From contig NZ_CP030941.1 of NCBI RefSeq assembly GCF_036621415.1, positions 1,054,001 to 1,118,000 of the forward strand: a stretch of DNA of 64,000 bases, written 5' to 3'. The notes below the pieces were generated by a model. It did no database searches and was not told the DNA's origin. It worked only from the letters and a program-made list of their open reading frames with translations. Position numbers and translations under genes: made by a program. Source of the stretch: Nitratireductor thuwali. GTDB lineage: Bacteria; Pseudomonadota; Alphaproteobacteria; Rhizobiales; Rhizobiaceae. Below are positions 402-10,957 of the stretch, one piece after another; position 1 is the stretch's first letter, and the number at the start of each line of letters is the position of its first letter.

Positions 402-1661
402 TCATCCTCGTTCCGGTCCTGGTCGTCCAACCGGTCCTTCGTCGCGCGCTGAAGGCGTGCATTCGGCCCGATAGATCTCGTAGAGATCGAGCCCGACGCC
501 GATGAGAATGACCGCGAATCCTAGCCCCTCGATCAGCGGATTGTAGGCCCAGAACATGACATAGGCGACGAGGAGAGCGCCGAGACCTGTCGCCATAAGC
601 GGCCAGGGCTGCCCATGACGCGGCAGGTTGAAGGCGGTGGCAACGACCGCCAGGGCGGCGGCAGCGACGATGGTCGCCGCCCACGCGCCCTCGGGAAGCA
701 CAACGGCGAAGCCCAACAGCGACAGAAGCCCCACGAAAGCGAGCGTGCCGTAGCAGGCGATGATCGAAGCCACGGCCGCGACCGCCCCCCACAGCCCCCG
801 CCCTCCAATCGCCGACGTCAGGCGCCGCGGGTGCAGCCGGCTCGCCAGGCGTCTAGCAACGGCCCGCCTCTTCGCTTCCGCCGGCCGGCGCATGACCACG
901 TCGATCGAGCGGGCGCCGAGGCCCGAGGCGATGCGGCGCGTATCGGCGCTCGGGCTTTCGGCGAAGTAGTCGAATTCGGCGAGCACCTCCGCATCGGCGA
1001 AGCCGGTTTCGCGGAACAGTTCCAGATAATCCTCGTCGACCGACGCGCCGACCACGCATTCGGCCCACAGCTTGGGGTCACTGCGCCCGCCGAGCGGCAC
1101 CGGTCTCTTGATGACGATGTCGGCAAGCTGCACGCGCCCTTCGGGCTTCAGCACGCGGAAGATCTCGGCAAACGCCTTGCGCTTGTCCGGCACGAGATTG
1201 AGCACGCCGTTCGAGGTGACCACGTCCACCGAATTGTCGGGCAGCGGGATGTTCTCGGCATCCGCCTCGATGGTCTCCACATGGTCGATTCCGCCCTCTT
1301 CCAGCGTCTCCCTTAGCCGGGTCAGCATGTCGGGCGTCATGTCGAGCGCCCAGACCTTGCCGGTCTCCCCGACCATCCGGCTGGCGATCAGCGTGTCGGT
1401 TCCCGAGCCCGAGCCGATGTCGAGCACCGTGTCTCCCGGCCCGATGACGCCGGCGCGGAAGGGATAGCCGACGCCGAGGAAGCGGTCGAGGACGGCAGGC
1501 GGCAGGCGGTCGAGTTCTTCCTTGGGATAGCCCAGGGCGAGCGCCGCCCGCCGGCCCACCGGAAAGTGGAAGCCCTGGTGCGGATCGTCCGCCACGCTGC
1601 CATACATGGCCTTCACCGCCTCTTTGACCTGCTCCTTCGAGAATCCCAGGATCGCAACCAT
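402..1661 (-). CDS. SAM-dependent methyltransferase (ArsM-like) with C-terminal membrane domain
   Basis: The N-terminal 260 residues form a class I SAM methyltransferase. Motif I reads DIGSGSGTDT at residues 81-90, and a post-motif stretch NGVLNLVPDKRKAF and an LKPEGR turn are typical of the ArsM/UbiE group. A single cysteine at residue 202 in the context CVVGA matches the position of a metal-ligand cysteine in arsenite methyltransferases. The other cysteines of a canonical ArsM are not evident, so the substrate is open. Residues about 290-395 hold four likely membrane helices, which would anchor the enzyme to the inner membrane. GGAGG lies five bases before the ATG at 1661. The gene sits 57 bp downstream of the sigma/anti-sigma pair and is probably in their operon. 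Confidence 0.75.
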   Translation of the reverse strand: MVAILGFSKEQVKEAVKAMYGSVADDPHQGFHFPVGRRAALALGYPKEELDRLPPAVLDRFLGVGYPFRAGVIGPGDTVLDIGSGSGTDTLIASRMVGETGKVWALDMTPDMLTRLRETLEEGGIDHVETIEADAENIPLPDNSVDVVTSNGVLNLVPDKRKAFAEIFRVLKPEGRVQLADIVIKRPVPLGGRSDPKLWAECVVGASVDEDYLELFRETGFADAEVLAEFDYFAESPSADTRRIASGLGARSIDVVMRRPAEAKRRAVARRLASRLHPRRLTSAIGGRGLWGAVAAVASIIACYGTLAFVGLLSLLGFAVVLPEGAWAATIVAAAALAVVATAFNLPRHGQPWPLMATGLGALLVAYVMFWAYNPLIEGLGFAVILIGVGLDLYEIYRAECTPSARDEGPVGRPGPERG

Positions 1662-1718
1662 CTCGTCCTCCGGTTCCCCTTTGAGCGCCGTGCCGCCGGC
1701 ACTCGTCCTTGCGCGTGT

Positions 1719-1952
1719 TCAGTAGTGCTCGACGATCGCCCGGACGCGCCGGCGCAGCGAATCGGGCGCCTTCGCCTTTCCGGTCTCGCTGACGCGCGCC
1801 CGCAGCTTCCGCTCGAACTCGGCCCGCGTGAAGCAGGCCCGGCAGGTCGCCATGTGGTGGGCGAGCGCCTGTTCCGTCTCCGCATCGAGCTCGCGGTCGA
1901 GATATTCGAGGAGCTTGTCGATCACTTCCTCGCAGCGCAGATCCTGGGTCAT
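1719..1952 (-). CDS. Zinc-binding anti-sigma factor (zf-HC2 type)
   Basis: This is a 77-residue soluble protein. His33, Cys37 and Cys40 form the H-x3-C-x2-C motif of ZAS anti-sigma factors (HMATCRAC). It has no membrane helix, so it would hold its sigma factor in the cytoplasm, and metal or thiol oxidation could release it. The start at 1952 is chosen because it overlaps the sigma-factor stop by four bases (ATGA). An upstream in-frame start at 2009 would run deep into the sigma gene. A redox-sensing role fits the neighbouring sulfur genes but is inference. Confidence 0.8.
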   Translation of the reverse strand: MTQDLRCEEVIDKLLEYLDRELDAETEQALAHHMATCRACFTRAEFERKLRARVSETGKAKAPDSLRRRVRAIVEHY

Positions 1953-2554
1953 CGGGGTCCACCTTTCGCATTGCAGGCCGCGATGCCCGCCTCGCCCGCC
2001 TGCCGCCACAGCATGCGTTGAAGCAGGCTGCGGCCGCGGGCGAGACGGGAGCGCACCGTGCCGAGGGGAATGTCGAGCGCGTCAGCCGCCTCGGCGTAGC
2101 TCAGATCCCACAGCTCGACCATGATCACCACCAGCCGGAATTCCTCCGGAAGCTCTTCCACCGCATGTTCGATGTCCTCGCGCAGGAGCTTGTTCAAAAG
2201 CTCCTGCTCCGGATTGCCCCACCACAGCAGGAAAGGCTGATGCACCGTCTCGAACAGGGAGAAGGAATCCTCGCCGCACTGCACCTCCGCCGTCACCTCG
2301 CGCGGTCTCGCCTGCTTCTTCCGGCGCGCGCTGATGAAGCTGTTGACGAGGATGCGGAAGACCCATTTCTCGAAAGCCTGCCTGTCCTTGAGTTCGGGAA
2401 GCTTGATCCATGCCTTGGCGAGCGTGTCCGCTACCAGGTCCTCGGCGTCGGCGCCGTTGCGGGTCATCCGCAGCGCCGTGCCGTAGAGCCGGTCCAGAAG
2501 GCGGTCCACCTCCGCTTCGAAGAAGGCGCGAAGCGGTTCGCCGACCTTGGTCAT
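1949..2554 (-). CDS. ECF-type RNA polymerase sigma factor
   Basis: This protein of 201 residues has a sigma-70 region 2 near its start (TALRMTRNGADAEDLVADT). Its region 4 helix-turn-helix lies at the end (LSYAEAADALDIPLGTVRSR). The start at 2554 gives the usual ECF length and begins just before region 2. A longer frame to 2719 adds an arginine-rich segment with no family resemblance. It is translationally coupled to the zinc anti-sigma gene. Like other ECF factors it probably drives its own operon, including the membrane-anchored methyltransferase, when the anti-sigma factor lets go. Confidence 0.85.
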   Translation of the reverse strand: MTKVGEPLRAFFEAEVDRLLDRLYGTALRMTRNGADAEDLVADTLAKAWIKLPELKDRQAFEKWVFRILVNSFISARRKKQARPREVTAEVQCGEDSFSLFETVHQPFLLWWGNPEQELLNKLLREDIEHAVEELPEEFRLVVIMVELWDLSYAEAADALDIPLGTVRSRLARGRSLLQRMLWRQAGEAGIAACNAKGGPR

Positions 2555-2862
2555 GGGATGCCTCGCTCCCTCACGAGCACGCGGCAGATCGCGGCGATCT
2601 CGTGCCATCTCCGTGCTCCATCCGCATCGCCGTCGCAACTTGCCGCCTGCGCTCTTAGCCGCGCCTGCGCAGGAGCGGCCAGCCCGCTTCGCCGCGCGAG
2701 CCCGCGTGCGGACCTCCACAGGGCGATGTCGACGATCTCCGCCTGCGGAGGCCGCGGCCGAACATCGGCCGCGGCGGGCTTCTCGCCTGCACTGTTTCGC
2801 AATCGTCGCATGCCCATCATAACCCAGTTGCAGCTCGACTTCACGTCATGGGATGCCCGCCT
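2555..2862. other. 308-bp intergenic stretch upstream of the sigma factor
   Basis: No convincing gene lies here. A minus-strand frame of 97 codons (2551-2844) overlaps the sigma start and encodes a low-complexity Arg/Ala-rich peptide without a ribosome site, so I do not call it. The stretch should hold the promoter of the sigma operon. I could not fix a -35/-10 pair with confidence. Confidence 0.4.
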
Positions 2863-3231
2863 CTAGAAGCTCAATGTCGCAGCACCCGCCTTGATGCGCT
2901 CATGCATCGGGCTTGCGCCGGTGATGATGACGCCGTCGATCAGGTCCGCCTCCTCATAGCCGCGCGCCTTCACGCAAGGGGTGCAGGCCCACAGCGTGCC
3001 GCCGCGTTCCAGAAAGTCGCCGATGAGCGAAGGAAGCGGCTCCAGCGGCTCCACATGGGTCATGTCGATTGCCCGCTTGCGCACCAGGTCGACCGCCGCG
3101 CTGGTCAGAAACACCGACACCTTGAGCCCGGCGGTGATCCCGCCATTGGCGATGGTGAAGGCGACGGACGACAGTTCATGGTCGGCGCCATGGGTGATCA
3201 GAACGACGAGTTCTTCGGTCGGATTGGCCAT
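2863..3231 (-). CDS. DsrE-family sulfur-relay-like protein
   Basis: The 122-residue product has the DsrE/DsrF-like fold. It opens with a beta strand and LITHGADHE, continues with AxxGLKVSVFLTS, and carries the conserved cysteine region CTPC (Cys83, Cys86) followed by KARGY. DsrE/TusD relatives carry persulfide sulfur on such a cysteine, so it could receive or donate sulfane sulfur in the cytoplasm. AGGAGG lies ahead of the ATG at 3231. It follows the 102-residue gene by 92 bp, in the same direction, and is likely in that transcription unit under the 3733-3777 element. Confidence 0.8.
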   Translation of the reverse strand: MANPTEELVVLITHGADHELSSVAFTIANGGITAGLKVSVFLTSAAVDLVRKRAIDMTHVEPLEPLPSLIGDFLERGGTLWACTPCVKARGYEEADLIDGVIITGASPMHERIKAGAATLSF

Positions 3232-3323
3232 CGTTTCCCTCCTAGTGATGTGTGTTGATCTGTGGTCGAGATGGCGCCGCCGCGCCTGCTTCGGCCGTCA
3301 GCGGCTGCCTTCCACCCGGCGTG

Positions 3324-3632
3324 TCAGCTTACCGCCCGCAGGACTTCCCAGCGGGTGTTACCGCTGACGATAAGCGGCTCGATGTCCCTGCCGAAGGCTT
3401 TGTGGTCTTCGTGGGCAGCCAGCTTCTCCCACTGCTCGTTGAGCTCGGCCAGGCTTTTCACCCTGACATCGACGGTGACGAGCGCTTCCTCGGCGCCGAT
3501 GCTGCCGGTGTAGATGGCGTAATCGGTCTGGCCGATCTCCTTGCCGATGGTCTCCCACCAGTTCTTGATGCGGTCGATCAACTCCGGCTTCTTGCCGAAG
3601 CGGGCATAGCAATACCAACGCGCGACGATCAT
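3324..3632 (-). CDS. Small conserved-type protein, possibly dimeric alpha/beta barrel
   Basis: The 102-residue product starts MIVARWYCYARFGKK and alternates strands and helices in the way of small ferredoxin-like dimeric barrels (NIPSNAP or monooxygenase-like). I cannot name the family from sequence alone. It contains one cysteine, near the start. GGGAGAAGGA precedes the ATG at 3632. It is the first gene after the 45-bp AraC-type element at 3733-3777 and is followed by the DsrE gene, so it is probably co-regulated with the sulfur operon upstream. Confidence 0.7.
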   Translation of the reverse strand: MIVARWYCYARFGKKPELIDRIKNWWETIGKEIGQTDYAIYTGSIGAEEALVTVDVRVKSLAELNEQWEKLAAHEDHKAFGRDIEPLIVSGNTRWEVLRAVS

Positions 3633-3732
3633 CTTCCTTCTCCCGTTGTTCGAGGCCGCGCCGTGGCCCGCCTGCATGGTGCACCCGGCGTCGGCAATCC
3701 TGATCACTTGATAGCCGCCCACCGCAGAGCCG

Positions 3733-3777
3733 TCTTTGCAATTGGGGAAGCAAGGTTTGGGGATTTGCGCACTGCAG
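3733..3777. promoter_or_regulatory. 45-bp element, copy A: putative AraC-regulator operator
   Basis: This stretch matches 9804-9848 at 37 of 45 positions, and the first 18 bases (TCTTTGCAATTGGGGAAG) are identical. Within it TTGGGGA occurs twice, at 3742 and 3757, 15 bp apart, which resembles tandem half-sites of an AraC-type binding region. It ends about 100 bp upstream of the 3632 start codon, in the same position and orientation as copy B has to the DUF302 gene. It lies between the SoxYZ stop and the small-protein gene. Confidence 0.7.
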
Positions 3778-3787
3778 TCCCGGTGGG

Positions 3788-4564
3788 TCACCGGACGTCG
3801 ATACGCACCTGCTCCACGGCGCGCCGGCCGGTATCCTCGCGCCATTCCAGCCGCAGCATGCCCGGGGCGCTCGGCGCCAGGAAGAAGCGCAGGTAGGGAT
3901 CGGCGGCCACCGAGCGGCCGAAGGTGGCCGTCAGCGCCGGCTCGCCGTCGAGCCGGGCCTCGAAGCGCTCGATGATGCGCTTGGGCGGAGCATCCGCCCC
4001 GAGCCCGTTCTCCATCGGGTGCTTGACGAGCGTGACCACCTCGCCCGGAACGCCGGCTTCGAAGACGGGCACGCGCACGCGCGTCCGCATCGCTTCCGCC
4101 CAGTCGCCGTTGCCCGGCGTGATACAGCCCGACGAGGCGATACGGATCGCCCGCTCGGCCACCCGCACCGCGCCCGAGCGCATCCGCGCCACGGCGATCA
4201 CCGTCTGGCTGTCGTCGAGGCGGATGCGCGTGGCGATCCGTGCCCGGCCGGCCAGCGGCGTGAAGCCGAAGACCGCCACCCGCGGGAAAGGGTTTTCCGG
4301 CGCGATCACGTGCACCGTGTCGGGAAAATCGTCCTTGGAATGTTTGACCGAGAGGCGAAGCGGCAGAAACGTGCCGCTATCGCTGACATTCGGCAGATGA
4401 AGCGAGATGCCCTCGGTGGTGGGCGTGGCGGCGCCGATGACGGCGCGCGCATCCGTGCTTTCCCGCCAGACACCTTGCGCGGCTGCGCCGGAGAAGGGCA
4501 GGGAGGCCAGAAGCGCGCTGCCGCCCATTATCAGCGCCCGCCGCCGCGACATGCCGTTCAGCAT
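3788..4564 (-). CDS. SoxYZ-like fused sulfur carrier protein
   Basis: This protein of 258 residues has a Tat-like signal peptide (SRRRALIMGG, then a hydrophobic stretch ending at AAA). A SoxY-like immunoglobulin-type domain follows, then a SoxZ-like domain (about 155-258). Cys147 in the context ASSGC sits where SoxY's sulfur-binding cysteine would be, but in mid-protein and without the classic C-terminal GGCGG tail. That arrangement is typical of the quinoprotein-dehydrogenase-associated SoxYZ fusion family. In the periplasm it would carry sulfur covalently. It overlaps the decarboxylase stop by seven bases; a second ATG at 4552 would remove the overlap. No soxAX, soxB or soxCD gene is in the window. 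Confidence 0.85.
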   Translation of the reverse strand: MLNGMSRRRALIMGGSALLASLPFSGAAAQGVWRESTDARAVIGAATPTTEGISLHLPNVSDSGTFLPLRLSVKHSKDDFPDTVHVIAPENPFPRVAVFGFTPLAGRARIATRIRLDDSQTVIAVARMRSGAVRVAERAIRIASSGCITPGNGDWAEAMRTRVRVPVFEAGVPGEVVTLVKHPMENGLGADAPPKRIIERFEARLDGEPALTATFGRSVAADPYLRFFLAPSAPGMLRLEWREDTGRRAVEQVRIDVR

Positions 4565-5982
4565 GCGATCTTCTTCCAGGCCGCCTCGATGGCCTCCGCG
4601 GCCGAGATGGCGGAGGCGACGTCCGTCGCATGGCCGATCACCGAAACGCGCAGCACCCTTCGCCCGCGCCAGTCGGCCGTCCTGAAGAAGAAGCGGCCGG
4701 TCTCGTTGAGCGCCGCCGCGACCGCGTCCGCGTGGTGGCCCGACGCCGACCCCGTCGCGCTCTCCCCGTGGAACGAGAGGACCACCTGGTTAAGGCAGAC
4801 GGCGTTCTCGACCCGGATGCCCGGCGTGTCGGCGAGATGCTCGGCGATCGCCCGCGCGCACTGGTGATGAGACCGGACCATCTCGGCGATCCCCTGCCGG
4901 CCGAGCGCCTGCAGCATCGCCCAAACGGCGAAGCCGCGGGCGCGGCGCGACAGCTCCGGCCCGAAATGCGTGGGATTGCGCCCGTCCTGCGCGTCATGGG
5001 ACAGATAGCCGGCGGTGATGTCCATCGCCCGGCGGTGGGCGTCCGCGTCGCGAACGATGGCAAAGCCCGAATCGTAGGGCACCTGAAGCCATTTGTGCCC
5101 GTCGACGGCCCAGGAGTGGGCGCGCTCCACGCCGCGGCACTGCGCCTTCATCTCCGGCACCGTGCGCGCCCACAGGCCGAAAGCGCCGTCGATATGCAGC
5201 CAACTCCCGTGCCGGGCGGCGAGATCGGCAAGCGGTTCGAACGGATCGAACGCGCCGGAGTTTATGTGGCCGGCCTGGCAGACGATGATGCCGGGGCCGG
5301 TTTCGCGCTTCAGCGCCGCCGCGAGCGCGGCATGGTCCAGCACGCCCTGATCGTCGGTGGGAATGCGGACGAAGTTCCGCTCCCCGAAGCCGAGATAGCG
5401 CAGGACCGCGAAGTTGGAGGCGTGCGCCTCCTCGCTGATGAAGATGTTGACCCTGGGCACGTCCTGCAGGCCGGCCTCGTCGAGATCGAAGCCCAGACGG
5501 CGGAGGACCTCGCCTCTTGCGGCCGCCAAGCATATGAATCCAGCCATCGTCGCGCCCGTGGTGAACCCGACCGAGCTCTCGCGCGGCAGGTCGAGCAGTT
5601 CGAGCAGCCATTTGGCGGCGACTTCTTCCGCCGTCGCCGCGGCCGGAGAGCACTGGTGGATGGCGGCGTTCTGCCCCCAGGCCGAGGTGAGCCAGTCCGC
5701 GGCGACGCCGGCGGGATGCGAGCCGCCCATCACCCAGGCGAAGAAGCCGGCCTGCGTGTTGCCCACAAGGCCGGGCTCGGCCGCATTCACCAGGTCGTCG
5801 ATCACGTCAAAGGGGTCGCGCCCCTGCTCGGGCAGGCCGCGGTCGAAGAGCCGGCGCAATTCCTCGGCGTCCGCCGAGGGATGCAAGGGCGGTCTGCCGT
5901 TGCGGTAGCGCCTGGCGTGAAACGCGGCGTGGTCGAGAACCGAGGCCGCGGCCTCTTGGACGGGAGCGGGTGCGTGTTTCAT
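4558..5982 (-). CDS. Group II pyridoxal-phosphate-dependent amino acid decarboxylase
   Basis: The product of 474 residues belongs to the aromatic amino acid/glutamate/cysteine-sulfinate decarboxylase family. Visible features are the cofactor lysine in VDGHKW (Lys297), the aspartate that pairs with the pyridine nitrogen in HIDGAFG (Asp265) and the ring-stacking histidine in SEEAHAS. The ATG at 5982 is preferred because it makes an ATGA overlap with the cysteine synthase stop; an ATG at 5997 is possible. The substrate cannot be read from the sequence. The context of cysteine synthase, SoxYZ and sulfide dehydrogenase suggests a sulfur amino acid such as cysteine sulfinate, cysteate or S-sulfocysteine, but that is inference. 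Confidence 0.85.
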   Translation of the reverse strand: MKHAPAPVQEAAASVLDHAAFHARRYRNGRPPLHPSADAEELRRLFDRGLPEQGRDPFDVIDDLVNAAEPGLVGNTQAGFFAWVMGGSHPAGVAADWLTSAWGQNAAIHQCSPAAATAEEVAAKWLLELLDLPRESSVGFTTGATMAGFICLAAARGEVLRRLGFDLDEAGLQDVPRVNIFISEEAHASNFAVLRYLGFGERNFVRIPTDDQGVLDHAALAAALKRETGPGIIVCQAGHINSGAFDPFEPLADLAARHGSWLHIDGAFGLWARTVPEMKAQCRGVERAHSWAVDGHKWLQVPYDSGFAIVRDADAHRRAMDITAGYLSHDAQDGRNPTHFGPELSRRARGFAVWAMLQALGRQGIAEMVRSHHQCARAIAEHLADTPGIRVENAVCLNQVVLSFHGESATGSASGHHADAVAAALNETGRFFFRTADWRGRRVLRVSVIGHATDVASAISAAEAIEAAWKKIAC

Positions 5983-7568
5983 CGCGGATGCAGCCATTTC
6001 GGGAAGAATTCATAGGGATCGACCGATTTCGACGCGTCGAACGCCACCCCCTTCGCCTTCAACAGGTCCTGGAGACGGCCGTCCTTGAAGGCATCCAGGG
6101 TCTCCGTGCACCCGCCCACGTGCTCGCCGCCGACGAAGATCTGCGGGATGGTCGGCGCACTGATCTTCTTGCGCAGGGCCACGCGGATGTCGCCGCCCCA
6201 GTTGTTCTCCTGATAGGCGACCGAATCGAGATCGACGGATCTGTAGGGGATGTCCGCCGCCGCGAAGAGCTTGCGCACGGACCAGCAGAACTCGCACCAT
6301 TCGAGGGCAAAGAGCACGACCTGTTCTTCCGGGTCGGACGTCACCTGCTCCACAAAATCCCATGCCGCTTTCGTGGGCTCCGGTACGGCCGCGTCACCGG
6401 CGGCGGGGGCGGCCTGAGAGGGCGCATCGAACCTGTAGGAAGGAGTCGAGGCCGCGATCTCGTTCTCTTCCGCATTCATCTCGTTCGAAATATCGTCGAA
6501 AAGCGGTGTCGAAAGGTAACGCTCGCCGGTGTCGGGGAGCATGGCCAGGATGCGCGAGCCCTGCGGCGCATCGCGGGCGATCTGAAGGGCCGCCGCAAAG
6601 GTCGCGCCTGCCGTGATGCCGCAGAATATGCCTTCCTGCCGCGCCAGCGCCCGGGCATATTCCAGCGCATCGGCGCCGCTCACCGGCACGAGCCGGTCGA
6701 TCAGCCGCGCCTTGAGCACGTCGTTGGTCAGCTTCGGGATGAAGTCGGGAGACCAGCCCTGCATGAGATGCGGGCGGAAGATCGGATGGCTTGCCGCCGG
6801 GCTGCCGTCGTCGCGGTAGCTCTGCGCGACCCCGCTGCCGAGCAAGGGGGAATTGTCGGGCTCGGTGGCGATGATCTTCGTTCCGGGGCTCTTCTCCTTC
6901 AGGACGCGCGCGACACCCTTGAGCGTGCCGCCGGTGCCGAAGCCGGTGACCCAGTAGTCGAGACCGTTCTCACCGAAATCGGCAAGGATCTCCTGCGCCG
7001 TGGTGCGGCTGTGCATGTCGGCATTGGCTTCGTTCTCGAACTGGCGGCACAGGAACCAGCCGTGCTTTTCGGCAAGCTCCCTGGCCTTGTTCAGCATCCC
7101 GCTGCCCTTCTCCGCCGCCGGCGTGAGGACGACGCGCGCCCCGAGATAGCGCATGAGGCGGCGCCGCTCGACGCTGAAGTTCTCGGCCATGGTCACGACA
7201 AGCGGATAGCCCTTCCGGGCGCAGACCATCGCCAGCCCGATGCCGGTGTTTCCGCTCGTCGCCTCGACGACCGTCTGGCCAGGCTTGAGTGTGCCGTCGC
7301 GCTCGGCCGCCTCGATAATGCCGAGCGCCAGCCTGTCCTTCACCGAACCCAGCGGATTGAAAGCCTCGAGCTTCACGTAGAGCGCCACGCCTCCGGGCGC
7401 GAGCTTGTCGACCCGCACCGACGGTGTGTTGCCGACGGTCTCCAGTATGGAACCGTAGAGACGGGAGGGCGCGGCATGGCGCTCCTCCCCGGCATTTGCC
7501 TGCCATGGGCCCGTGGACGGGCCGTTGTTCGTTTCCTCCTGGGGGAGCGGTTTGGTTGAATAGGTCAT
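5979..7568 (-). CDS. Cysteine synthase (CysK/CysM type) fused to a C-terminal glutaredoxin
   Basis: The product has 529 residues. Residues 40-360 are an O-acetylserine sulfhydrylase: Lys77 in SVKDR holds PLP, TSGNTG at 104-109 binds substrate and GTGGT at 209-213 binds phosphate. A linker of about 45 residues rich in Ala, Pro and Glu leads to a glutaredoxin at about 410-515. The glutaredoxin has a CEFC active site (423-426), the cis-proline segment PTIPQIFVGG and a glutathione-binding GGCTET. CysM enzymes use thiosulfate to make S-sulfocysteine, which glutaredoxin or NrdH reduces to cysteine, so the fusion may perform both steps. The start at 7568 is taken because upstream codons run into the fccB gene. 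Confidence 0.88.
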   Translation of the reverse strand: MTYSTKPLPQEETNNGPSTGPWQANAGEERHAAPSRLYGSILETVGNTPSVRVDKLAPGGVALYVKLEAFNPLGSVKDRLALGIIEAAERDGTLKPGQTVVEATSGNTGIGLAMVCARKGYPLVVTMAENFSVERRRLMRYLGARVVLTPAAEKGSGMLNKARELAEKHGWFLCRQFENEANADMHSRTTAQEILADFGENGLDYWVTGFGTGGTLKGVARVLKEKSPGTKIIATEPDNSPLLGSGVAQSYRDDGSPAASHPIFRPHLMQGWSPDFIPKLTNDVLKARLIDRLVPVSGADALEYARALARQEGIFCGITAGATFAAALQIARDAPQGSRILAMLPDTGERYLSTPLFDDISNEMNAEENEIAASTPSYRFDAPSQAAPAAGDAAVPEPTKAAWDFVEQVTSDPEEQVVLFALEWCEFCWSVRKLFAAADIPYRSVDLDSVAYQENNWGGDIRVALRKKISAPTIPQIFVGGEHVGGCTETLDAFKDGRLQDLLKAKGVAFDASKSVDPYEFFPKWLHPR

Positions 7569-7629
7569 GGTTCGCTTTCCGTTGTGCTTGTTGAACTGCG
7601 TTTTCCACAACGCGGCGACGCGCGGCGGG

Positions 7630-8910
7630 CTACCACCGCCGGCCCCAGACGTCCTGGGTGATCGCCTCGTACCAGCCGACGGCGTAGCGCGCCTCGGCAC
7701 GGCGGAAGGCGGAATCGGCATCGGCGGGGCTGAGGCCGCCGGCGTCCGGCACCTCGGCGATCTCGCCGTCGACCAGCCTGTAGTGGCCGGCGACCGAGAT
7801 GCCGTAGTCGGGCGAAAGCAGGCTGTAGCAGGTGTTGGTCCAGGCGGGCTGCGGCGGCGTGCGCCCGTTGAGCATCGCGGCGATCACTGCGGCGACCACC
7901 TTGCCCTGGGCACTGGCGGAGAAGCCGGATTTCGGCATGGGCGCGGCCACCGTGGCATCGCCCACCACGTGAATGCCGGGGACGACGCGAGACTCGAACG
8001 TCTCCGGCTTCACGGGCACCCACCCCGAGGAGTCCGTCACTCCGGCGCGCTCGGCGATCAGGCCCGCCTTCTGCGCCGGCACGACGTTGAGCACGTCGGC
8101 ACGATGGATGTTCCCGAACTCGGTCTCCACCTCGCGCCTTTCCGCGTCGACGCGGATCACCCGGCCGTCGTCGGACTGGCCCACCCACTCGATCATGCCG
8201 CCGTAAAGCTCCTTCCAGCCGGCGGCGAACAGGCCCTGCTTGGAAAAACCGTTCTTGGCGTCGAGGATGAGGACCTTGGAGCGCGGCTTGGCGCGCTTGA
8301 AGTAGTTGGCGACGAGGCTCGCGCGCTCGTAGGGTCCGGGCGGGCAGCGGAAGGGGTTGGGCGGCGCGGCCAGCACGAAGACGCCGCCATCCTCCATTTC
8401 CTCGAGCTGGCGCCTGAGAAGGCGCGTCTGGGCGCCGGCCTTCCAGGCATGGGGCACCTTCCCGGCGGCCGACGCGTCATAGCCTTCGATGGAATCCCAG
8501 CGCATGTCGATGCCGGGCGACAGCACCAGCCTGTCATAGGCAAGCTCCGCGCCGCCGGCCAGCCGCACCCGTTGCGCCGTGCCGTCGACGTCGTCGGCCA
8601 GATCGTGGATCACCTCCACCCCGAGGGCGCGGAGTTCATCGAAGCCGTGGCCGATCGCGGCGAAATCGCGCAGGCCCGCGAGATGGAGATTGGAGAACGG
8701 GCAGGTGTAGAAGCGCTCCGCCGGCTCCACCAGCGTGACCGCGATGGCGGGGTCGTGCCGCTTGAGATATTTCGCCGTGGTGGCGCCGCCGAAGCCGCCA
8801 CCGACGACGACTACCCGGCCAGCCTGGGCACGACCCGTACCGGGCAGGCCGAGCGAAGCGGCCGCCGCGGCGGCGCCCATCAGGGAGAGGGTCTGGCGCC
8901 GCGTCTTCAT
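7630..8910 (-). CDS. fccB: Flavocytochrome c sulfide dehydrogenase, flavoprotein subunit
   Basis: The 426-residue protein begins with a Tat-type signal (TRRQTLSLMG, then an alanine-rich core to about residue 29). An FAD-binding GGGFGG follows at 37-42. The YTCPFSN segment (Cys70), the RCPPGPYER cysteine and the NTCYS cysteine near the C terminus match the FccB family, the last two being the expected redox-active pair. It oxidises sulfide to sulfane sulfur in the periplasm and passes electrons to the heme subunit. Its start overlaps the fccA stop by four bases (ATGA). Confidence 0.92.
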   Translation of the reverse strand: MKTRRQTLSLMGAAAAAASLGLPGTGRAQAGRVVVVGGGFGGATTAKYLKRHDPAIAVTLVEPAERFYTCPFSNLHLAGLRDFAAIGHGFDELRALGVEVIHDLADDVDGTAQRVRLAGGAELAYDRLVLSPGIDMRWDSIEGYDASAAGKVPHAWKAGAQTRLLRRQLEEMEDGGVFVLAAPPNPFRCPPGPYERASLVANYFKRAKPRSKVLILDAKNGFSKQGLFAAGWKELYGGMIEWVGQSDDGRVIRVDAERREVETEFGNIHRADVLNVVPAQKAGLIAERAGVTDSSGWVPVKPETFESRVVPGIHVVGDATVAAPMPKSGFSASAQGKVVAAVIAAMLNGRTPPQPAWTNTCYSLLSPDYGISVAGHYRLVDGEIAEVPDAGGLSPADADSAFRRAEARYAVGWYEAITQDVWGRRW

Positions 8911-9230
8911 GGTTCTTCCTCCGCCGTCAGGTTTGCGAAGTAGCGCGCCAGCGCCTCAAGCTCATCGTCGCTGTATCCGGCGGCGATGCGCGACATGATG
9001 GTGGCGTTGGGATCGTTGCCCGCCTTGAAGGCGGCGAGCCTGTCCGCCGTCACCGCCTGCGGCGCGCCCGCCAGCGGCGGTACGGCGCCCGGCGAACAGC
9101 CCTCCGTGCCGTGGCAACTCGCACAGCTTTCCGCCAGCATCGACACCGGCTCTTCGGCCATCACGGGTGAGGAGACGGCGCTGGCCAGAAGAGCGCCGAG
9201 CCCCGCCGTTGCCGATCGCCTCATGCACAT
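8907..9230 (-). CDS. fccA: Flavocytochrome c sulfide dehydrogenase, cytochrome c subunit (mono-heme)
   Basis: This is a 107-residue exported cytochrome. After a signal peptide ending near VMA (about residue 25) there is one heme site, CASCH at 36-40. Met79 in TIMSRIAAGY is the likely distal ligand. The protein is about half the size of the di-heme FccA of Allochromatium but fits mono-heme FccA proteins. It takes electrons from FccB, to which it is coupled by ATGA, and passes them to a respiratory cytochrome. An in-frame ATG at 9224 has better spacing to an AGAGG than the one at 9230. Confidence 0.88.
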   Translation of the reverse strand: MCMRRSATAGLGALLASAVSSPVMAEEPVSMLAESCASCHGTEGCSPGAVPPLAGAPQAVTADRLAAFKAGNDPNATIMSRIAAGYSDDELEALARYFANLTAEEEP

Positions 9231-9268
9231 GGGTCCTCTCTCCCTTCCCGGCGGCATGGCGCTTGCGC

Positions 9269-9706
9269 CTATTGCAGCGTCGCTTCGAGGAGCTCGGCAA
9301 AGGCGGGCTTTCCCTTTTTTACCGCCTCCGCCAGATTGGGGTCGGGGTTGAGCTCGGTCATGAAGTCCAGGTCCAGCCTGGACATACGCGACTGGCCGTC
9401 CTCCTCGTAAAAGGCGAGGTGGCCGCACGGCATCATCGCCATGACGTGCAGGCCCGCCGCGACGATGTCGGGGCCGAGGGGCGCATAGCAGATCTTGACC
9501 GCCGTCACCTTGCCGCCGGCCAGGCCGAACTCGGCCATGTAGAGCCACTCGTCGCGGGCTTCGGCGTAATCGCGGATCGCTGCCACAGCCTCGTCCGGGC
9601 TCTGCGTGAGGTCGCGCACGACGAAGAGGTCGCCCTCCTGCCCCACCGCCTGTCCCGCGGAGAGCGCCAGCGCGCCGGCTGCGATCATGCCAAGGAAACG
9701 TTTCAT
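9269..9706 (-). CDS. Periplasmic DUF302 protein
   Basis: The product has 145 residues, with a signal peptide (KRFLGMIAAGALALSAG, cleavage near AVGQ) and a DUF302 domain recognised by KICYAPLG, MMPCGHLAFYEEDG and the following aspartate-rich strand. DUF302 proteins are small soluble proteins of uncertain role, often next to sulfur or redox genes. The ATG at 9706 lies eight bases after AAGGAG and is preferred to the GTG six bases upstream. It is the first gene of the fcc operon, with operator copy B about 100 bp upstream. It ends 38 bp before fccA. Confidence 0.82.
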   Translation of the reverse strand: MKRFLGMIAAGALALSAGQAVGQEGDLFVVRDLTQSPDEAVAAIRDYAEARDEWLYMAEFGLAGGKVTAVKICYAPLGPDIVAAGLHVMAMMPCGHLAFYEEDGQSRMSRLDLDFMTELNPDPNLAEAVKKGKPAFAELLEATLQ

Positions 9707-9803
9707 CTTCACTTCTCCTTATGTCGATCGGCCTGCCGCGCTGGACCAGCCCGGCGACCGGCATTGCCATTGCCAACGGGATAGCGGCTTTACCGGGAGC
9801 CTG

Positions 9804-9848
9804 TCTTTGCAATTGGGGAAGGCATGCTTGGCGATTTGTGCATTGGAG
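9804..9848. promoter_or_regulatory. 45-bp element, copy B: putative AraC-regulator operator in the divergent promoter
   Basis: This copy lies between the DUF302 gene and the AraC gene and matches copy A (3733-3777) at 37 of 45 positions. Its half-sites are TTGGGGA at 9813 and TTGGCGA at 9828, again 15 bp apart. A further related motif, GCAATCGGGGAAC, lies at 9881-9893 nearer the araC-type gene and may serve autoregulation. Confidence 0.7.
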
Positions 9849-9946
9849 CCCGATCCGCATCGCCGCTCGGCCCTCCTTCCGCAATCGGGGAACTTAATCG
9901 GAGCGTTTGCGTCCTTTGCCCCAACAGAAGGACAAGGAGGCAGAAC

Positions 9947-10957
9947 ATGGCCGAGATCGCCCCTGCAGGCACGTTCGAACCGGTAAGGAAGCTGCACGCG
10001 ACCTCCTGCAGCCCCGTGCCGGTGCGTCGGAGGCCCCTGCCGGACTCATTCGACGAATGCCGTGAAGGCACGAGCTTCGCCTGCCCGGTCCTGTGGAACA
10101 AGACGATCGACTTCCTCTGTGACGAGCCGGAAGCGCTCAGGATCCGGTCGTGCACCGTCGCAGACGCCGCTCTGGCCGAAATCGCCGCCCCTCCCATGAT
10201 AGTGACCCAGGATGGCTCGGCGGCGGACGATCCGCACCGCTTTCATCTGGTTCTCCTGCTCGAGGGATATGGGGATTACCGCTGGGCAGGCGGCACCGCC
10301 ACGCAATTGCCCGGTGACGTTGTGCTCATCGACACCGCCGCGCCGTCCCAGGTGGTCTCATCCGTGGATTGCCGCCTCGTGAGATGGAGCTTTCCCGAAC
10401 CGCTCATCGCGCCATTCCTGCCGCTGCGCGAAAATTGCCCGGTGCTGCATCTTCCGGCGCGGGAGGGGCTGATGACGGTCCTTGCGCAGCACACGCAGCT
10501 GCTTGCCCGCGAGGCAGAGCGGCTCGACCGCGCCACCGCGCAAGGGCTGCTTACGCATCTGTGCGGCCTGGTCGGCCTTGCCATCGAAACAGCGAGAGGG
10601 CCGCGCCCGGCACGCTGCCACAACTACCGCGCCCATCAGCGCCAGAGGGTTCTGTCCTATATCGAGACGCATCTGCGCGACCCGCGTTGCACGGCAAAGC
10701 GCGCGGCGCGCGATCTGGGCATGTCGGTGCGCTGGCTGCATGCGCTGCTCGCGGACATGGCGGACGGCTTCGCCGACCTTGTGGCCCGCCGCCGCCTGGA
10801 ACAGAGCCTCGCGCTGCTTGAGGATCCGGCCTCCGATCACCTTTCTATCGCCGAGATTGCATTCCTTGCCGGTTTCAACGACCTGTCGACCTTCTACCGT
10901 CGCTTCAGCGACTGCTATGCAATGACGCCGGGCGCCGCGCGGCGCCGGAAGACCTAG
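9947..10957 (+). CDS. AraC-family transcriptional regulator
   Basis: The product has 336 residues. Residues about 35-200 resemble the AraC ligand-binding domain type 2, a cupin-like sensor (PGDVVLIDTAAP). Residues about 225-330 are the two-part helix-turn-helix (AARDLGMSVRWLHALLAD and IAEIAFLAGFNDLSTFYRRF). AAGGAGG is placed ideally before the ATG at 9947. It diverges from the DUF302-fcc operon, and the two 45-bp elements sit upstream of minus-strand genes, so it likely activates both. The inducer is unknown; a sulfur compound is the simplest guess. Confidence 0.9.
   Translation: MAEIAPAGTFEPVRKLHATSCSPVPVRRRPLPDSFDECREGTSFACPVLWNKTIDFLCDEPEALRIRSCTVADAALAEIAAPPMIVTQDGSAADDPHRFHLVLLLEGYGDYRWAGGTATQLPGDVVLIDTAAPSQVVSSVDCRLVRWSFPEPLIAPFLPLRENCPVLHLPAREGLMTVLAQHTQLLAREAERLDRATAQGLLTHLCGLVGLAIETARGPRPARCHNYRAHQRQRVLSYIETHLRDPRCTAKRAARDLGMSVRWLHALLADMADGFADLVARRRLEQSLALLEDPASDHLSIAEIAFLAGFNDLSTFYRRFSDCYAMTPGAARRRKT

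Follow-up and report, generated by a model that had tools for sequence, protein, structure and literature searches.

A probable sulfur-handling operon of Nitratireductor thuwali that combines a SoxYZ-FccAB cassette with a cysteine synthase-glutaredoxin and decarboxylase gene pair

The window analyzed here is a stretch of 64,000 nucleotides from the genome of Nitratireductor thuwali (Rhizobiaceae; contig NZ_CP030941.1, positions 1,054,001 to 1,118,000), and the subject of this report is a group of six genes at positions 3788-9706 of that window. A preliminary description of this DNA had presented the group as a sulfur-handling operon with an unusual combination of genes, and our analysis supports that view. 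The arrangement is true and unusual: half of it is a known cassette (SoxYZ-FccAB), and the other half is a recurrent gene pair that encodes a CysK-type synthase fused to a glutaredoxin and a group II decarboxylase dependent on pyridoxal 5'-phosphate (PLP). What is unusual here is that the cassette is split around the synthase-glutaredoxin/PLP-decarboxylase pair and that SoxY and SoxZ are fused. A few full-text searches brought up no literature report of the gene combination or of the synthase-decarboxylase pair, and the portions of PMC11237559 available to us hold nothing on this six-gene arrangement. The reading that we tentatively prefer, and to which we would give somewhat less than an even chance, is that of a coregulated sulfide-handling operon in which a two-enzyme module has been placed inside an ordinary SoxYZ-FccAB cassette and the product of the synthase would be decarboxylated to a cysteamine-like amine.

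All six open reading frames (ORFs) lie on the minus strand, in the order and place first described. From the first gene to the last they are as follows:

9269-9706, minus strand: small exported protein of 145 amino acids (aa), with a Sec-like N-terminus by eye
8907-9230, minus strand: FccA, exported monoheme cytochrome c (PF00034, 1.8e-7; one CASCH)
7630-8910, minus strand: FccB, flavocytochrome c sulfide dehydrogenase flavoprotein (PF21706/PF09242; PDB 5n1t)
5979-7568, minus strand: CysK-type synthase with a C-terminal CEFC glutaredoxin (PF00291 and PF00462; TIGR01139)
4558-5982, minus strand: group II PLP decarboxylase (PF00282, 2.8e-47; catalytic residues)
3788-4564, minus strand: fused SoxY-SoxZ (PF13501, 2.2e-21; PF08770, 3.9e-17)

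The Pfam matches bear out the earlier naming of FccAB, the glutaredoxin, the PLP decarboxylase and a SoxY and SoxZ joined in one frame. Successive junctions measure +38, -4, +61, -4 and -7 bp, such that the "mostly overlapping junctions" of the preliminary description hold for three of the five and not for the gaps of 38 and 61 bp; the decarboxylase gene is flanked by overlaps on both sides (-4 and -7 bp). None of the seven terminator-like sites found in 1600-10100 is on the minus strand, and a sigma-70 promoter scan, the result of which is uninformative, found no promoter. Judged from this layout, the six same-strand genes would make a credible operon.

FccAB proteins oxidize sulfide in the periplasm to sulfane sulfur or polysulfide and pass the electrons to cytochrome c. 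The FccB of the window has the domains FCSD_central (PF21706, 1e-50) and FCSD-flav_bind (PF09242, 7e-30) and matches PDB 5n1t, a solved flavocytochrome c sulfide dehydrogenase (FCSD), at an E-value of 8.9e-148; its C189 and C361, a pair that we take to have a redox role, align with both of the cysteines of 5n1t, and its N-terminus is twin-arginine-like. The adjacent FccA has a single CXXCH motif (CASCH) and is encoded by a gene that overlaps fccB by 4 bp. An FCSD flavoprotein with the cysteine pair, next to a cytochrome c partner, is what an FccAB would be expected to present, and polysulfide is the product ascribed to FCSDs in the accessible part of PMC9774590. In the SoxY-SoxZ fusion, the only cysteine, C147, aligns with the SoxY arm cysteine of 2ox5, and the arm is internal to the protein. 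Matches to SoxYZ at 1e-25 occur in 18 of 289 genomes sampled from the class, N. thuwali included, and at all 18 places outside its own genome the match is interrupted by a stop, which is what one would see if soxY and soxZ were separate genes. The fusion is unusual in the class sample, though SoxYZ fusions in general are already recognized in a named family, the quinoprotein-associated ones of TIGR04557, for which the window's protein falls below the cut-off (108.1 versus 140 bits).

The operon had been described as lacking the core Sox genes. This stands for SoxB, of which the genome's best match (116 bits) is below the cut-off of the model (550) and which counts as absent by that standard; for SoxAX and SoxCD it is a judgment from reading the operon only. 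On this evidence the locus would contribute the carrier cysteine of a Sox thiosulfate-oxidizing system and no SoxB. A SoxYZ-FccAB group without neighboring core Sox genes is an ordinary cassette and is seen in other records too. SoxY, SoxZ, a cytochrome c and FccB are found together on a Phyllobacterium zundukense plasmid and on S. meliloti pSymA, and P. alcaliphilus p402633 (L173, 9543-14323) has a cytochrome c, FccB (63-65% identity), YeeE, a second flavoprotein, SoxY and SoxZ, in each case with no annotated SoxAXB alongside; in Roseomonas the same four proteins are accompanied by SoxA and SoxX. In the Phyllobacterium, pSymA and P. alcaliphilus cassettes soxY and soxZ are annotated as separate genes, whereas they are fused in the window, where the synthase and decarboxylase genes also part soxYZ from fccAB. 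Within flanks of ~1.5 kb, FccB lies near 5 of the 18 SoxYZ loci outside the window's own genome, one of these being a weak match of 33%. At 1e-60, FccB was found in 17 of 61 relatives, N. thuwali included, and in none of 15 congeners, and the FccB part of the operon may therefore be acquired.

The synthase had originally been called a "CysM-glutaredoxin", of which the second half can be kept. The CysM label was rejected: the protein narrowly passes the cysK model TIGR01139 (354 versus 350.95 bits), fails the cysM model (240 versus 394.2 bits) and has no arginine in the region matching residues 210-212 of CysM (Q/G in a MAFFT alignment). The column of Arg210 is uncertain, standing opposite Q by MAFFT and opposite Ala231 of the A isozyme in the part of PMC3805590 that was seen, and neither register puts an arginine in the window's synthase. 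According to the available portion of PMC9547175, the Arg210-Arg211-Trp212 segment of CysM is linked with the use of bulkier donors, thiosulfate among them. The genome holds a second cysteine synthase-like gene, 37% identical to that of the window.

Members of this synthase family, fused or not, occur in 22 of 289 class, 58 of 397 order and 8 of 16 genus genomes. The glutaredoxin fusion, counted when a match reaches the C-terminus of the query, occurs in 8, 11 and 2 of these, respectively, with the window's genome included in each count and with a stop inside the match in one of the 8 and one of the 11; a twelfth candidate from the order, in genome G488, has a match that extends as far as residue 522 and contains stops. 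On a tree of 69 synthases, from which 32 duplicate locus ids had been removed, the fusion (22 rows) needs only 2 changes, compared with a mean of 18.9 in 500 shuffles, none of which came as low, and it is confined essentially to one clade. This tree and that of the decarboxylases described below are quick trees with no bootstrap and with long branches flagged, most of them among the decarboxylases.

These results bear on a route in which thiosulfate or sulfane sulfur would be built into S-sulfocysteine, the glutaredoxin would reduce the latter, yielding cysteine plus sulfite, and the decarboxylase would make a taurine- or cysteamine-like product. The S-sulfocysteine step was part of the preliminary description, and the fused glutaredoxin fits its precedent: E. 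coli Grx1 and NrdH turn S-sulfocysteine into cysteine (PMC3528435, seen in part), and the enzyme logic of the E. coli CysM-plus-glutaredoxin thiosulfate route given there is the same, with a single polypeptide in the window. The restriction of the fusion to essentially one clade is also in keeping with such a route. Unlike E. coli CysM, however, the window's enzyme is of the CysK type and is devoid of the arginines of the segment tied to thiosulfate; with SoxB absent and no thiosulfate transporter gene read in the operon, we consider this route quite improbable.

The decarboxylase has K302, H192, D270 and Y331 (in a numbering that begins at position 5997, where the ORF starts) in place, residues that we presume to be catalytic. 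Among 113 matches to it, 25 adjoin a member of the synthase family, with four loci counted twice and with near copies inflating the pairing counts. On a tree of 108 rows, which left out 4 duplicate loci plus short or identical rows, the 22 paired decarboxylases can be accounted for by 5 changes, compared with a mean of 20.4 in 500 shuffles, none of which gave so low a number, and they form two distant branches of 9 and 13 rows. The second branch is joined to unfused synthases only (13 rows), and the first to fused (7) as well as unfused (3) synthases, these counts including locus L232 of genome G403, whose pair is truncated where the contig begins (53% over 100 aa) and which was assigned to the paired rows manually. 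This recurrence upholds the earlier claim of a coupling between decarboxylase and synthase. It suggests that the decarboxylase may act on the product of the synthase, mainly because two decarboxylase branches join one synthase family.

Adjacent genes for the fused synthase and the decarboxylase, in the same order as in the window, are found on Novosphingobium pentaromativorans pLA3 and in Alphaproteobacteria bacterium BRH_c36 and Rhizobiaceae bacterium HKST-UBA62 (60-71% identity for the synthase and 51-58% for the decarboxylase), with no match to FccAB or SoxYZ within the stretches examined. An enzyme of the O-acetylserine sulfhydrylase (OASS) family and a PLP decarboxylase also act in one pathway in siderophore synthesis of the SbnA/SbnH type. 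The pair in the window resembles these in its two enzyme classes, and its synthase fails the SbnA model (208 versus 349.95 bits). In a number of other loci, large tetratricopeptide-repeat or cyclase-like regulators stand beside the pair (L067, L091, L107, L177 and L232; the cyclase is annotated in L177, the others were recognized by eye).

The six-gene order, for which the preliminary description had proposed a search among relatives, was seen in no other locus of the sample examined. The pair itself turns up in Alphaproteobacteria of diverse kinds, with neither FccAB nor SoxYZ for a neighbor: no FccB or SoxYZ adjoins the synthase or decarboxylase in any of 20 regions, any of 16 regions or any of 4 further stretches that carry the synthase (L174, L175, L177 and L257). 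A pattern scan over a collection of 84,980 species, which may omit the window's own, returned at least 588 decarboxylase relatives; near the best 80 of these there is no SoxYZ and one weak FccB match of 33% (L140). The loci compared span 3-21 kb, some of them being short, and "unique" as applied to the arrangement means unique within this sample. Its occurrence in one genome only among the loci examined might mean that an acquired pair fell between fccAB and soxYZ by chance or recent insertion and is co-transcribed with them in the absence of a common pathway. The lack of FccB at 1e-60 in all 15 congeners, and the different nearest relatives of the different parts, would agree with this. The overlapping reading frames at either end of the decarboxylase gene speak against it, as does a repeat that ties the operon to a neighboring unit with a DsrE gene, and we regard such an insertion as unlikely.

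This repeat of 49 nucleotides (nt), an AraC-family regulator gene and the downstream second unit were not included in the earlier reading of the locus. They comprise the following features:

9824-10957, plus strand: candidate divergent AraC-family regulator (PF12833, 1e-13; start probably near 9944, by reading)
9803-9851, minus strand: copy 2 of the 49-nt repeat, upstream of the first gene of the operon
3732-3780, minus strand: copy 1 of the 49-nt repeat, upstream of the second unit
3324-3632, minus strand: NIPSNAP-like small protein, first in the second unit (PF07978, 4.5e-5 when the longer ORF 3324-3845 is used)
2863-3231, minus strand: DsrE-family protein with CxxC at C83 and C86 (PF02635, 5.6e-14)
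1949-2719, minus strand: extracytoplasmic function (ECF) sigma factor, start uncertain (PF04542, PF08281)
1719-2009, minus strand: zinc-finger anti-sigma factor (PF13490, 5.9e-9)
402-1661, minus strand: ArsM-like methyltransferase fused to a MerC-like domain (PF13847, 1.4e-27; PF03203, 3.6e-6)

The two copies of the repeat are 82% identical and share an exact 18-nt core, which at up to 3 mismatches has only 2 copies in the genome, both ahead of these neighboring units. The distance from the repeat to the start of the following gene is 96 nt for the first gene of the operon and 99 nt for the NIPSNAP gene, and the AraC gene overlaps or abuts copy 2. The shared repeat and the divergent AraC gene suggest that the operon and the second unit may be coregulated, and we infer that the AraC protein would control the units. 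In genome G075 the order ECF-anti-sigma-ArsM is found again at 62, 51 and 61% identity (L256, 5258-10151), with a relative of the AraC protein (43%) ~2 kb from it. At 1e-60 the ArsM-MerC fusion is otherwise absent from a sample of 385 genomes of the class. A small protein encoded just upstream of a fused synthase in another locus (L091, 5660-6028) is 32% like the MerC-like end of the fusion.

In the mechanism that we tentatively prefer, FccAB would oxidize sulfide in the periplasm and the fused SoxYZ may hold sulfur on C147. In the cytoplasm, the CysK-type synthase would join the sulfur of sulfide or a persulfide to O-acetylserine, and its fused glutaredoxin would, where needed, reduce a persulfide or disulfide on the donor or product, a step for which the action of the E. 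coli glutaredoxins on S-sulfocysteine (PMC3528435) is a precedent. The resulting cysteine, or S-substituted cysteine, would lose its carboxyl group to the PLP decarboxylase, such that cysteamine or an S-substituted cysteamine might serve as a sulfur sink. Glutathione persulfide is among the donors usable by cysteine synthases, according to the part of PMC13188885 that was available. Any direct channelling from SoxYZ of the sulfane sulfur considered in the preliminary description is weakened by the predicted locations of the proteins. The twin-arginine-like N-terminus of SoxYZ would make it periplasmic, the synthase and decarboxylase have no signal-like N-terminus by eye and there is no transporter gene in the operon; the idea that SoxYZ passes sulfur straight to the synthase is thus unsupported, because the two would sit in different compartments.

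Several observations weigh against a sulfide-to-cysteamine function. With no FccAB or SoxYZ beside the pair in any other locus, the link of the pair to sulfide comes from a single genome, and 7 related loci show no copy of the repeat above the level of shuffled sequences (at best 24 of 40 positions, versus maxima of 21-24 in the shuffles). No paired decarboxylase was found for 15 of the 22 fused-synthase rows. Conversely, the synthase is adjacent in only 5 of the best 80 of at least 588 decarboxylase relatives and was not seen beside the other 75, so that most of these enzymes seem to work without it. The closest solved relatives of the decarboxylase are aromatic amino acid decarboxylases (for DOPA, 3,4-dihydroxyphenylalanine, and for tryptophan), the best PDB match being the DOPA decarboxylase 7xin (2.3e-42), and not cysteine sulfinate decarboxylase (9.1e-21). 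An aromatic substrate with no relation to sulfur would accord with these matches; the pairing of two decarboxylase branches with the same synthase family argues to the contrary, and we hold this to be highly unlikely.

Other points of the same bearing concern the synthase. Its loop QGWSPDFIP differs from the QGIGAGFIP of CysK and exactly matches neither isozyme, 68 of the 69 distinct synthase sequences share its W.PDF portion, and the best solved relative is O-ureidoserine synthase; the nucleophile may accordingly be something other than sulfur. The neighbors of the synthase in other genomes are also to be considered. On Novosphingobium pLA3 an OsmC gene, genes for two flavoproteins (no FccB match) and a truncated hemoglobin, and sensor genes precede the pair. 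In the congener G009, the genes (named by eye) are those of OsmC, a flavoprotein, a truncated hemoglobin, a PAS protein, a kinase and a regulator, followed by the fused synthase; the OsmC-to-synthase order is near-identical in the two (in the congener, L257, 8918-17362; on pLA3, L174, 2563-12909). In G403 a DsrE relative and a cysteine-desulfurase-like gene (the latter by eye) lie nearby. Neighborhoods of this sort speak more for redox or sulfur stress than for growth at the expense of sulfur, and the company of OsmC, truncated hemoglobin and sensor genes points to general redox stress. The product of the pair might be a beta-substituted ethylamine without sulfur, formed for example from an amine or a hydroxylamine-type nucleophile, and FccAB and SoxYZ might be neighbors of the pair through shared redox-stress regulation. 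That the synthase passes the cysK equivalog model, that its fusion to a CEFC glutaredoxin suggests thiol chemistry and that it shares an operon with FccAB and SoxYZ all tell against this alternative, which appears to us to have a small but real chance of being correct.

The first gene of the operon (9269-9706) had been described as encoding a DUF302 protein. This label found no support in Pfam (no family at E<=1), in a search of the genome with PF03625 (no match at E<=1) or in the PDB, in which the sole match, at E 1.3, is meaningless. A structure model from the single sequence (predicted local distance difference test, pLDDT, 46.8) is too poor to judge the fold. Among 385 genomes of the class, the protein has a strong match only in its own genome, and two more genomes have weaker ones (E 0.0014 and 0.0076). 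The sequence is DUF302-like by eye, and a divergent member of that family is a possible, unconfirmed assignment; DUF302 genes are reported in sox operons in the part of PMC5248467 that was seen.

A broader proposal can be built on the sulfide-handling reading, namely that the pair represents an undescribed bacterial route of two enzymes from O-acetylserine and sulfide or persulfide to cysteamine or S-substituted cysteamine, which arose twice with different decarboxylase branches and is wired here, as a sulfide sink, to periplasmic sulfide oxidation. We consider this doubtful. Should the product of the pair be cysteamine or a taurine-like amine, the pair would be a short bacterial route to such a compound, of a kind that our limited full-text search did not bring up, and, if true, it would give a role to a fused enzyme seen in 11 of the 397 genomes of the order, that of N. 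thuwali included.

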